From contig NZ_CP008985.1 in the NCBI RefSeq assembly GCF_000754265.1, positions 695,426 to 759,425 of the forward strand: a stretch of DNA of 64,000 bases, given 5' to 3'. The position numbers and the translations under genes are program-made. Under the pieces are notes generated by a model. That model made no database searches, was not told the DNA's origin, and saw nothing but the letters and a program-made list of their open reading frames with translations. The DNA comes from Candidatus Palibaumannia cicadellinicola. GTDB taxonomy: Bacteria > Pseudomonadota > Gammaproteobacteria > Enterobacterales > Enterobacteriaceae. Positions 36,229 through 41,332 of the stretch are shown here, piece after piece; position 1 is the stretch's first letter; every line of letters begins with the position of its first letter.

Positions 36229-36627
36229 TTAATCGGCTGTATCTTTTTCGTGATAACGTTGACGATCTTTTTCTACAGCTTGACTAACAAGATTATATAT
36301 GCGCATACCTTTTACCAATGAGTAGTCATAAGCGAAAGTTAGCTTCGGCACCACACGTAAGTGCATTGCTTTGCCGAGCAGGCTACGGATAAATCCCGAA
36401 GCAGCCTGCAGTGTCCGTATCGCTATGTTTACCTGATCATCGTTATTCTCATTCAGGAAGGTGAAGGTCACAAAAACTGTTGCTGATGCTAAGTCACGGG
36501 ATACATCAACTCCTGAAACAGTAGCCATACTAATACGAGGATCTCTAATTTCGCGTTGCAAACTAATGGCTATTGTTTTTTGCATCTCCTGAGCGAGACG
36601 TTGTGTACGGCTATACTCTTTGGCCAT
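36229..36627 (-). CDS. rbfA: 30S ribosome-binding factor RbfA
   Basis: RbfA helps 30S maturation and 16S rRNA 5'-end processing. The start is at [20 protein letters not shown], with GGAG 12 bases upstream; a longer frame from 36666 adds 13 unsupported residues. [24 protein letters not shown] and the C-terminal [21 protein letters not shown] match the KH-like fold. It has 132 residues. rimP, another 30S assembly factor of this operon, is broken here, while rbfA, truB and infB remain. Confidence 0.97.
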
Positions 36628-36686
36628 AAGACATTCTCCAGATAGATAAGCCAAGGCGTTTCTCATATTTCTGTACTTAACGATCG

Positions 36687-39344
36687 TTAGTTATCAAGCG
36701 CTAGTTTTTGTATTATCTGAATGAATTCGAATACTTCTATAACGTCGCCAGTATGAATATCAGTATAGTTTTTTATACCAATACCACATTCCATACCGTT
36801 ACGCACTTCATTAACATCATCTTTAAAGCGACGTAGCGAATCTAGCTCACCTTCGTAGATGACGATATTATCGCGTAGTACGCGAATTTTGTTATGGCGC
36901 TTAACTACACCTTCTGTTACTATACAACCAGCGATAGCGCCAAATTTAGGTGAACGAAAAACATCACGTACTTCTGCTAAACCAATAATTTCCTGTTTAT
37001 ACTCAGGTGCTAGCATACCATTAATTGCTTGTTTGACTTCATCAATCAAGTCGTAGATTACAGAATAATAACGTATATCAATATTTTCAGTATCAATTAT
37101 GCGACGAGCAGAGGCATCAGCACGAACGTTAAAACCTAGTACTATAGCATGAGAAGCAGCAGCAAGAGTAACGTCAGTTTCAGTAATACCACCAACACCA
37201 GAGCCGATGATATTCACTTTTATGTTATCGTTAGAAAGTTTCTTAAGTGCATCATGGATTGCTTCTGCTGAACCTTGTACGTCTGATTTGAGCACAATGT
37301 TCAACTCTAATATGTTGCCTTCGGTAACATTAGCGAACATATTTTCTAGTTTAGAACTATGCTGACGTGCTAATTTTACTTCACGAAACTTACCCTGACG
37401 ATATAGGGCCACTTCACGAGCTTTTTTCTCATCACGGACTACAGTCACTTCGTCACCAGCAATAGGAACTCCGGATAGACCGAGAATTTCTACTGGGATA
37501 GATGGACCAGCAGAATATAAAGTACGACCTCCTTCATCACGCATGGCACGTACACGACCATATTCTAGTCCGCATAGCACAATATCACCACGATTCAGAG
37601 TACCTTCACGTACTAATATGGTTGCTACTGGACCTCTGCCTTTATCCAAGAAAGATTCGATCACAACACCGCTTGCCATACCATGATGAATGGCTTTAAG
37701 TTCTAGCACTTCCGCCTGTAGCAGGATAGCGTCTAGTAGATCTTCAATACCGGTACCATCTTTAGCAGAGACATTCACGAACTGATTTTCACCACCCCAT
37801 TCTTCCGGAATAACACCGTACTTAGTTAGTTCATTTTTTATACGATCTGGATCAGCTTCTTGTTTATCAATTTTATTGATAGCGACAACAATCGGTACTT
37901 TTGCAGCTTTAGCATGTTGTATCGCTTCTATTGTCTGCGGCATAGCGCCGTTGTCAGCCGCAACCACTAGCACAACAATATCCGTTGTTCTAGCACCACG
38001 AGCACGCATGGCAGTAAAAGCTGCATGTCCAGGAGTATCCAGAAAGGTAATCATACCTCTCTCTGTTTCTACATGGTAAGCTCCAATATGCTGAGTAATA
38101 CCGCCAGCTTCGCTAGCTGCGACCTTAGTTGAGCGGATATAGTCTAGTAATGAGGTTTTACCATGGTCTACGTGCCCCATGATGGTTACAACGGGAGCAC
38201 GTAATTCAGCAGCAGCGTCGCTACCAATATCACGGTCGTTCATAATCGATGCTTCTAATTCGTTTTCACGAAGTAGGATAACCTTATGACCCATATCTTC
38301 TGCCACAATTTGCGCAGTTTCTTGATCAATTACTTGGTTAATAGTTACCATGGCACCTAATTTCATCATTTTTTTTATTATTTGTGAACCTTTTACTGCC
38401 ATCTTATTAGCTAGTTCAGCAACCGTGATCATTTCTCCGATAACAACATCGCGGTTGATTACTTGCGAAGGTTTGTTGAAAACTTGCATCAGAACGCTAG
38501 ATTTACGTTTGTTTTGACTTTTCCCACTACGTCCAACAGCGCGTGCTTCTTCGCGATCTGCTTTAAACTCAGATAAACGGTTAGTTCTTTTTTGTTTAGA
38601 AGTTTTACCTCCTCGGATTCGACGTTCGTTTTCTATCTTTCTATCATTATCGTCTTCTGCTACACGGGCGTGATGACAAGTCGTAATATGGTAATCAGTT
38701 ATATCTTCTTCGGTAGATTCGGACGTAGCAATCCAATTGCTACCATGATTTTCAGCAAGTTGAGAGACTTCTTCTGCAATTTGGCGAGCCTTTTCTTCGA
38801 TCTTACGACGTGTTTCTTCTTCTACTTGATGTTTCAACCATGCTGCTTCTACTTGACGGTTGGCTTTTTCAGACGCCTGTTTTGACTTAGTCATAGGATT
38901 GGTCTGATTTATTATCAATTTATTACTTTCCGCTATCCTACATTTATTTTGTTTCTTAGGAACAGATTTAGTATTATCTTCTGTCTGAAGTATTACTGTT
39001 TCGACAGTCATCTTTTTAGTCAGTTCTTCTACTTCATTCTGTTTCAAAGCCTGAGGTTCTCGTTGCACATATATGCGCTTTTTACGTACTTCTATTTGTA
39101 CTGACTTACTTTTACCACTGGCACTAGGAATCTTTAAGGTGCAGCGCGTTTTACGTTGTAAGGTTAATTGATGTGGCGCGTTGCTAAGATCAGATTTTAG
39201 GTACGCGAGTAAGGTTTCTTTTTCCTGCGAAGTAACATAATCTACTGCGGTTTTATCAATACCAACATCAGTAAACTGCTGTACTAGACGATCCACAGGA
39301 ATTTGCATTTCTGCGGCAAGCGATTTTACTGTTACATTTGTCAT
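36687..39344 (-). CDS. infB: Translation initiation factor IF-2
   Basis: IF-2 is the GTPase that brings fMet-tRNA to the 30S subunit. N-terminal IF2-N domains ([20 protein letters not shown] near residue 1; [19 protein letters not shown] segment near residue 305) flank a long charged linker rich in Glu, Lys and Arg. The G domain has [23 protein letters not shown] and [11 protein letters not shown], and domains II-IV end in [22 protein letters not shown]. The 885 residues are the E. coli size. It follows nusA by 25 bases. The linker is intact, unlike in many tiny genomes. Confidence 0.97.
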
Positions 39345-39369: not shown

Positions 39370-40857
39370 TTACACCTTATTACCAAACCAGCAAATATTG
39401 CGCGCTGCCATAATTAGCTCTCCAGCTTCCTCACTGCTTAATCCTTCAATATTTGATAAGTCTTCGACACCTTGTTCGGCAAGATTTTCCAGCGTACACA
39501 CCCCATGCGCGGCTAATTTGAAAGCTATATTGCGCTCAAGTTTCGATAATCCCAATAAGTCTTCAGCCGGCTTGACTACTTTGCTATTATTTTCCATAGC
39601 TAAGGCAAGTTCCGTAAGAGCATGCTTAGCTTTTGTTCGCAGCTTTTCTACTGTATTTTCATCAAGTTTATCGATGGCTAGTAATTCCTTTATTGGTACG
39701 TAGGCTAGCTCTTCCAGCGAAGAAAAGCCACCATCCACAAGTACTGTAGCTAAATTTTCATCGATCTTTAGATGTTTAATAAAAATTTTGATAGAAGCAT
39801 AAGCTTCAGCTCTATGTTTTTCCTGTAGATCATATACTGTCATAACATTTAGCTCCCATCCGCTGAGCTGGGAAGCTAACCGGACGTTTTGTCCGTTGCG
39901 TCCTATAGCCTGAGCAAGGTTCCCAGCTTCTACCGCAATATCCATAGTATGTTTATCCTCATCTACTACTATGGACGTTACGTCAGCGGGGGCCATAGCG
40001 TTAATAACAAATTGAACAGCGTTATCATCCCATAAAACAATATCAATACGTTCCCCGCCTAATTCGCTAGAAACTGCCTGTACGCGCGCACCGCGCATAC
40101 CAACACACGCACCAACAGGATCAATTCTTTTATCATTAGTTTTCACTGCTATTTTGGCTCGTGAGCCTGGATCTCTGGCTACAGCCTTAATTTCAATTAC
40201 TTCTTCGCCGATTTCTGGTACCTCAATACGAAACAGCTCAACTAACATTTCGGGACGAGCGCGGCTCACGAAAAGTTGCGGGCCACGTGCTTCCGGACGT
40301 ATGGAGTAAAGCACTCCGCGGATACGGTCACCCAGGCGAAAATTCTCACGTGGTAACATATCTTCACGACTAATAAAAGCTTCAGCATTATTCCCGAGAT
40401 CTAGATTTATACTGTCGCGATTAACTTTTTTTACCACACCGGTAAGGATTTCTCCTTCGTGATTACGAAATTGTTCTACTACCATAGCACGCTCTGCTTC
40501 GCGTACTTTTTGCACAATAACTTGTTTAGCGGTTTGAGTAGTGATACGGTCAAATATTACAGATTCAATTTCATCTTCAATATAACCGCCTATTTTAGCT
40601 TTTGAATTGTCAAATTTTGCTGCTTCCAGTGTGATCTCGCGAGTTGGCAGGGTGACTTCTTCTACAATAAGCCAACGGCGGAATGTTTTAAAATCACCAG
40701 ACTTACGATCAATGTTAATGCGAACTTCAATTTCTTGTTCGTATTTTTTCTTTGTTGCGGTAGCCAGAGCAGTCTCAAGCGCTTCGAAAATCTTTTCCCT
40801 TGGAATTGATTTTTCGTTGGAAACTGCCTCAACAACAGCAAGAATTTCTTTATTCAT
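39370..40857 (-). CDS. nusA: Transcription termination/antitermination factor NusA
   Basis: NusA binds RNA polymerase and modulates pausing, termination and antitermination. The N-terminal domain ([28 protein letters not shown]) is followed by an S1 domain ([21 protein letters not shown]), two KH domains ([51 protein letters not shown]) and the two acidic C-terminal AR repeats. It has exactly 495 residues, as in E. coli. Upstream, where rimP should be, lies only a broken rimP copy whose frame ends over the nusA start. Confidence 0.97.
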
Positions 40858-41063
40858 CCTAGTAGCCTCAGTAAAATGTTAAAAGTCGGGTACAAAGCGA
40901 AAACTTTTACTTTTTTTCTTTCTACCGTCACCGTGATCATTTCACCGTCGACCGCTTTAAGAATGACCTACTACTTACCGCTACCGCCGTAGTTTGGCAC
41001 TGCTATACCATAACCATCTTCTGCGCCGGTAAATAGCGCGAAATAGGCTGCGGTGAACTTTGA
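40858..41063 (-). pseudogene. rimP: rimP (30S maturation factor) pseudogene with two adjacent stops
   Basis: RimP normally precedes nusA. In one minus-strand frame this interval reads FTAAYFALFTGAE, matching FTAEHYARFVGEE of E. coli RimP, and further on KAVDGEMITVTVE, identical to RimP, then VFAL. Between them K-W-Q-G has become K-stop-stop: TAG TAG at 40968-40973, each explained by one base change from TGG and CAG. The N-terminal half (about 90 residues) is missing. The frame runs on to a TGA that overlaps the nusA ATG. The gene is recently dead but still easy to recognise. Confidence 0.88.
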
Positions 41064-41090
41064 TCTTATTATTTAATAATAATATTTAAT

Positions 41091-41116
41091 AACAAAAAGC
41101 CCCGAAAAATCGGGGC
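41091..41116 (-). terminator. Rho-independent terminator after tRNA-fMet
   Basis: On the minus strand GCCCCGA, a 4-base loop and TCGGGGC form a 7-bp stem (41099-41116), followed directly by TTTTTG. It lies about 85 bases after the tRNA-fMet gene and before the rimP remnant, so it separates the tRNA transcript from nusA-infB, either fully or by partial readthrough as in the E. coli metY-nusA operon. Confidence 0.9.
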
Positions 41117-41201
41117 GTTAAGTTATTGTAACTTGTCAATCGCAAGCAAAAATGCAAATTATTAATAATATTTTAAAAAATACTATTAAAGAAAAAAGAG
41201 G

Positions 41202-41275
<74 letters not shown>

Positions 41276-41332
41276 TAATAAAATACTTTAATATACTTTG
41301 TTTACCGTAATAAATCAACTAATCAACGAAAT

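Follow-up and report, generated by a model that had tools for sequence, protein, structure and literature searches.

A long-dead rimP remnant before nusA in a Baumannia symbiont, conserved in its nucleotides and probably kept as an upstream control region

The window, a stretch of 64,000 nucleotides from Candidatus Palibaumannia cicadellinicola, the bacterial partner of a sap-feeding insect, carries on its minus strand a tRNA-Met gene followed by nusA and its usual neighbours. The tRNA-Met (CAT) is located at 41200..41275, in the position of metY of Escherichia coli. The nusA gene (39370..40857, 495 aa) is intact, and beyond it lie open frames of 885 aa (36687..39344) and 145 aa (36229..36666), both on the minus strand. 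We take these to be infB and rbfA, with truB beside them, on the basis of the gene order. Between the tRNA-Met and nusA, at about 40872..41060, translation of one minus-strand frame gave KFTAAYFALFTGAEDGYGIAVPNYGGSGK, two stop codons and VILKAVDGEMITVTVERKKVKVFAL, and translation, phmmer, blastn and alignment identified this piece as a RimP homologue that starts at about residue 84 and reaches the C-terminus. When the translation, with X at the stops, was compared with PDB chains by phmmer, it matched residues 82-138 of E. coli RimP (7afi_X) with an E value of 7.5e-6, the sole further chain listed being unrelated (E 0.86). At the DNA level, a 461-base query (40840-41300) aligned by blastn to E. 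coli genomes with 82.1% identity over 41% of its length, in two pieces corresponding to rimP and to the tRNA-Met. The scores against family profiles were low (13.4 bits for the C-terminal SH3 domain PF17384, whose cut-off is 26.3, and 15.9 bits for the NCBIfam RimP model, whose cut-off is 162) because the piece is short, being half of a protein of about 150 aa, and decayed. An earlier note on this DNA had proposed a rimP pseudogene beside intact nusA-infB-rbfA-truB, with a frame resembling the second half of E. coli RimP. Both the match and the gene order tRNA-Met, rimP relic, nusA, which is that of E. coli, agree with this proposal. The stretch spelling KAVDGEMITVTVE (40920..40958, minus strand) was identical to the E. 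coli protein, and FTAAYFALFTGAE was similar, not equal, to it.

The frame of this relic is interrupted by several lesions. Two tandem TAG codons at 40968..40973 stand opposite the Trp-Gln codons of intact RimP, as the earlier note had stated and as alignment to E. coli confirmed. Relative to E. coli, 25 nt are deleted directly after the FAL codons (approximate junction 40890..40900); because this deletion shifts the frame, the ancestral rimP stop (TTTTAA), which together with the nusA Shine-Dalgarno sequence TGAGGCTACTAGG occupies 40858..40887, is out of frame and reading continues to a TGA overlapping the nusA start. Length changes of -6, +9 and +3 nt with respect to Sodalis, all of them in frame, were read from the alignment. 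Neither this deletion nor these length changes, nor the retained rimP-leader hairpin described below, had been mentioned in the earlier note. The N-terminal half had already been considered as gone, and searches of the complete genome (759,425 bp) did not give any match to RimP_N (PF02576) nor, at E<=0.001, to RimP_C, so that no second copy was found. With the N-terminal half absent, two stops and a frameshifting deletion, RimP cannot be made from the relic.

A part of the relic might still be translated, either by read-through of the stops or as a small frame coupled to nusA, and by eye a short frame does run in the window from an internal ATG to the TGA that overlaps the nusA ATG. However, in the nearest relative, the Baumannia genome G003, that ATG is ATA and indels disrupt the frame, and RimP_N is unmatched across the window's own genome. 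Since the start is not conserved and the N-terminal half is absent, we rejected this explanation, which we regard as hardly credible. An antisense gene was discarded as well: a 38-aa frame on the plus strand had a counterpart in G003 with 68% identity over 31 aa, and there an extra base, detected by eye, breaks it.

The earlier note had also held that a 30S maturation factor was lost here and that other assembly factors stayed. This was true in part, as RimM and Era were detected in the genome, but RsgA, a 30S assembly GTPase, was not found in it by a search whose E. coli control was positive. RimP is consequently not the sole late 30S factor that is missing, and the genome shows a thinning of its 30S maturation factors, not an isolated loss.

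The four Baumannia genomes available (the window's own, G000, and G001, G002 and G003) were compared in order to date the loss. None of the four gave a match to RimP_N or RimP_C, and in place of an intact rimP the three sister genomes contained, between the leader hairpin and nusA, remnants of the gene that had been trimmed differently in each. That of G003 covers approximately the same stretch as in the window. In G002, which we take to be the symbiont of the glassy-winged sharpshooter, a 5' piece resembling GCAGCCTATTTCGCGCTATTTA remains (79% over 47 bases, E 0.001), and G001 has a piece at the rimP stop (92% over 38 bases) and another, recognised by eye, near codon 75. The distance from hairpin to nusA is about 259 bases in the window, 315 in G003, 131 in G001 and 127 in G002, and 558 in the Sodalis locus L061, where rimP is intact. 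Moreover, the window has the 25-nt deletion in common with G003, as well as the second TAG and, with respect to Sodalis, an insert of about 10 nt; at the site of the tandem stops G003 has TAG only as the second codon, directly preceded by an extra base that disrupts the frame. Because these lesions are shared, the alignments indicate that rimP was already broken before the lineages of the window and G003 split.

These data bear directly on the recent loss that the earlier note had suggested, that is, an independent event with rimP still coding during most of the time since the split from G003. The exact preservation of KAVDGEMITVTVE, the three internal length changes of the window's relic, all multiples of three, and the identity of neighbouring whole genes, which is similar to that of the relic (0.82-0.91), would be expected from it. 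Against it stand the lesions common to G003 and the distribution of the substitutions, which had no excess at third positions (see below). On these two grounds the recent loss was rejected, and we consider it very improbable. The simplest reading is one ancestral deletion for all four Baumannia, with one end just past the leader hairpin of rimP and the other near codon 75, in which case the loss would predate the four sequenced lineages.

Loss of RimP is ordinary among small genomes: RimP_N was present in 47 of the 60 genomes surveyed, the own genome included in this number, and each of the 13 genomes without it was 1.1 Mb or smaller. The gene was intact in G018, a relative with a genome of 1.0 Mb. 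The nusA start could be located in seven of ten further loci (G013, G016 and G024 being left out), and five of these seven did not have a convincing trace of rimP (best E 0.60), the other two being the intact gene of G018 and a decayed one in G032. Among the papers searched, none mentioned both rimP and Baumannia, and those listed for rimP pseudogenes of endosymbionts were off-topic by title.

The relic was compared with that of G003 for determining its rate of change. Both sequences were identical at 172 of 192 positions, with 25 gap columns, whereas four-fold degenerate sites of six neighbouring genes were identical at 729 of 1062 (0.69). A neutral simulation with a four-fold matrix derived from five of the six genes (1033 sites) gave, over 2000 runs, identities averaging 0.671 (sd 0.032, maximum 0.778), and none of the runs attained 0.90 or more. 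With its last 14 bases left out, the relic was identical at 169 of 186 positions, which is not the neutral rate of this simulation. The count of mismatches varies with the alignment, being 20 in 192 in one and 17 in 200 columns in another. In the latter, the 17 changes were distributed 4/7/6 over codon positions 1/2/3, whereas in the six neighbouring genes third positions took most of the changes (identities of 0.902/0.958/0.735). The lack of a third-position excess points to nucleotides, and not a protein, as what has been kept. In this genome pair, the only one with the long relic on both sides, the relic appears clearly conserved at the nucleotide level, without constraint at the protein level.

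This rate must also be judged against other non-coding DNA, and here ordinary decay, the possibility that the relic is just a decaying pseudogene whose high identity comes from chance, from a locally low mutation rate or from four-fold sites being a poor yardstick, finds an argument. The 30 other spacers compared with G003 had a pooled ungapped identity of 0.83 (2724/3271, with 1328 gap columns), well over that of the four-fold sites, which may therefore overstate the neutral rate. The baseline was built with mechanically called ORFs and with 17 of the 45 submitted contigs of G003. Among spacers of at least 55 nt the relic ranked 3 of 29, and the 28 spacers ranked against it include the tRNA-Met/nusA spacer that contains the relic itself. 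By eye, the top-ranked spacer contains part of csrA, and the spacer 329542-329770 looks coding. Other well-conserved spacers near the relic in this ranking are truB-rpsO, which overlaps the S15 leader, and 666895-667089, which overlaps the RpsF leader; three unexplained ones come close to its identity (665892-665950, 0.90; 91231-91411, 0.89; 254968-255374, 0.87). The relic thus seems to be conserved like a regulatory leader, but it shares this with other spacers, and the description of it as an unusually well preserved fossil is right against the four-fold expectation and only partly so against the spacers, where it is high, not unique. Ordinary decay further agrees with the restriction of RimP_N loss to small genomes and with the deletion of most of the relic in G001 and G002. 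On the other hand, none of the 2000 neutral simulations reached the observed identity, and the rank of the relic places it near a spacer overlapping a known type of leader. With both sides weighed, we consider ordinary decay rather unlikely, although it keeps a substantial weight.

As a separate observation, the spacers 254968-255374 and 91231-91411 of contig C1 of G000 lack an Rfam match and are 0.87-0.89 identical to G003. Pfam scans of seven translated frames (five of 254968-255374 and two of 253583-253884) did not give any match.

The identity to G003 was not uniform along the minus strand of the relic. The large block 40919..41000 was identical at 78 of 82 positions with 1 gap column, and 41001-41060 at 50 of 58 with 14 gap columns. 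The lowest identity (26/31, 1 gap column) was that of 40888..40918, and the Shine-Dalgarno region of nusA (40858-40887) was identical at 30 of 30 positions, with 7 extra bases in G003, and near-identical in Sodalis. In E. coli, an internal cold-responsive promoter of nusA, P3, lies in distal rimP, with ATCACA as -35 and AAAGAT as -10, and its transcription start is given there as 75 bp before nusA, inside rimP (PMC6511841). As this start falls at the FAL codons on the E. coli record, P3 covers part of KAVDGEMITVTVEGKDEV, and the stretch spelling KAVDGEMITVTVE overlaps its -35 half. The -10/start region of P3 corresponds to the block with the lowest identity, and the window retains the -35 half whereas the -10 half is variable. 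A scan of the minus strand for promoters (9/12 consensus) did not give any match inside the relic and gave one just upstream, at 41068-41095. Since the -10/start block is the least identical and no 9/12 match lies inside the relic, a P3-like promoter role is only plausible. The metY-rimP-nusA-infB operon of E. coli shares with the window its gene order as well as the tRNA-Met, the hairpin and the Shine-Dalgarno region, with the relic covering the P3 region, and differs from it in that the window has lost the rimP frame and conserves poorly the counterpart of the P3 -10/start (PMC6511841).

Synonymous variation was studied in 79 enterobacterial rimP genes (L061-L139), which are the best 80 loci among those listed, less that of G003. 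Many codons from about column 130, the P3 -10 region, to the stop were unusually constant synonymously, in a count that ignores kinship; this may be taken as a hint that the 3' DNA of rimP has a role beyond coding for the protein. We rejected the idea of a general synonymous-site conservation in the DNA of KAVDGEMITVTVE, since that stretch was for the most part unremarkable in these 79 genes. Reduced synonymous variation at many of the codons was also observed, over the same 79 loci and likewise ignoring kinship, in alignment columns of about 0-8 and 36-55, besides 130-148; the 3' stretch of low variation begins at the P3 -10 region.

Upstream of the relic, a rimP-leader attenuator (Rfam RF01770) was recognised by its covariance score on the minus strand at 41040..41152, with its hairpin at 41099-41116. 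The scores were 43.1 bits in the window, 42.2 in G001 and 48.3 in G003, the gathering score being 47 and the loci L021, L024 and L060 being examined besides the window. In G002 the family was not listed at E<=0.5, and the hairpin is visible. The attenuator has thus outlived rimP, being recognisable in three Baumannia genomes and over the gathering score only in G003. The window resembles the Rfam leader in having the hairpin with its flanks at the same site before the former rimP, and departs from it in its sub-gathering score and in preceding now a dead gene and nusA.

The nusA leader folded better than shuffled sequences in the window and in G003 (z of -2.54 and -2.32, respectively), and its consensus fold contained one pair altered on both sides. 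In controls that kept the substitutions but relocated them, the consensus energy was as good in 24 of 500, and the result for broken pairs was equalled in 113 of 500. With these figures, we discarded the view that the relic is conserved for an RNA structure alone. A GCCT within the relic may mask the Shine-Dalgarno sequence of nusA, the pairing probability being >0.99 in G003 and G002 and about 0.01 in G000; G001 does not have such a site.

Taken as a whole, the relic is mostly an ordinary old rimP pseudogene of a reduced genome, and its preservation is the interesting part. The death of the gene follows from the lesions themselves. As for the preservation, the comparisons suggest that the nucleotides of this 3' half of a rimP that died long ago have probably been kept as the upstream control region of nusA. 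The function retained would be the control of nusA through its Shine-Dalgarno sequence and leader, perhaps with the P3 region too, and the orphaned attenuator would sit in front of this region. A stronger form, in which relic and attenuator together would now act in cis on nusA in one Baumannia lineage, as an extended leader or promoter under constraint, we hold tentatively and would put its chances somewhat short of even. In the genus as such the relic is dispensable, because most of it is missing from G001 and G002, which retain nusA.

A comparable situation is found in Buchnera, where inactivated elements lose most of their DNA in the long term and functional spacers persist (PMC3164680). 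This pattern agrees with a retained role of the relic without proving it. The two systems are alike in that dead genes shrink inside spacers and many spacers keep Shine-Dalgarno sequences, terminators and small RNAs (PMC3164680); they differ in that the constrained spacer seems here to be supplied by a dead gene that can be named. The death of genes in shrinking genomes is commonly judged by the proteins lost. The remnants of this one gene in sister genomes, at different stages of decay, suggest that what persists is the DNA needed by the neighbouring gene, and conservation of endosymbiont spacers can stem from promoters or leaders that formerly overlapped a gene. If the retained role is true, the relic would be a small case of a coding remnant kept for regulation.

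Finally, a separate rimP pseudogene was observed before nusA in G032, a relative with a genome of 1.2 Mb (contig C5, near 370990); its RimP_N match is interrupted by four stops. As in the window, the rimP before nusA is broken by several stops; in contrast to it, residues 1-133 of E. coli RimP are still recognisable in G032.
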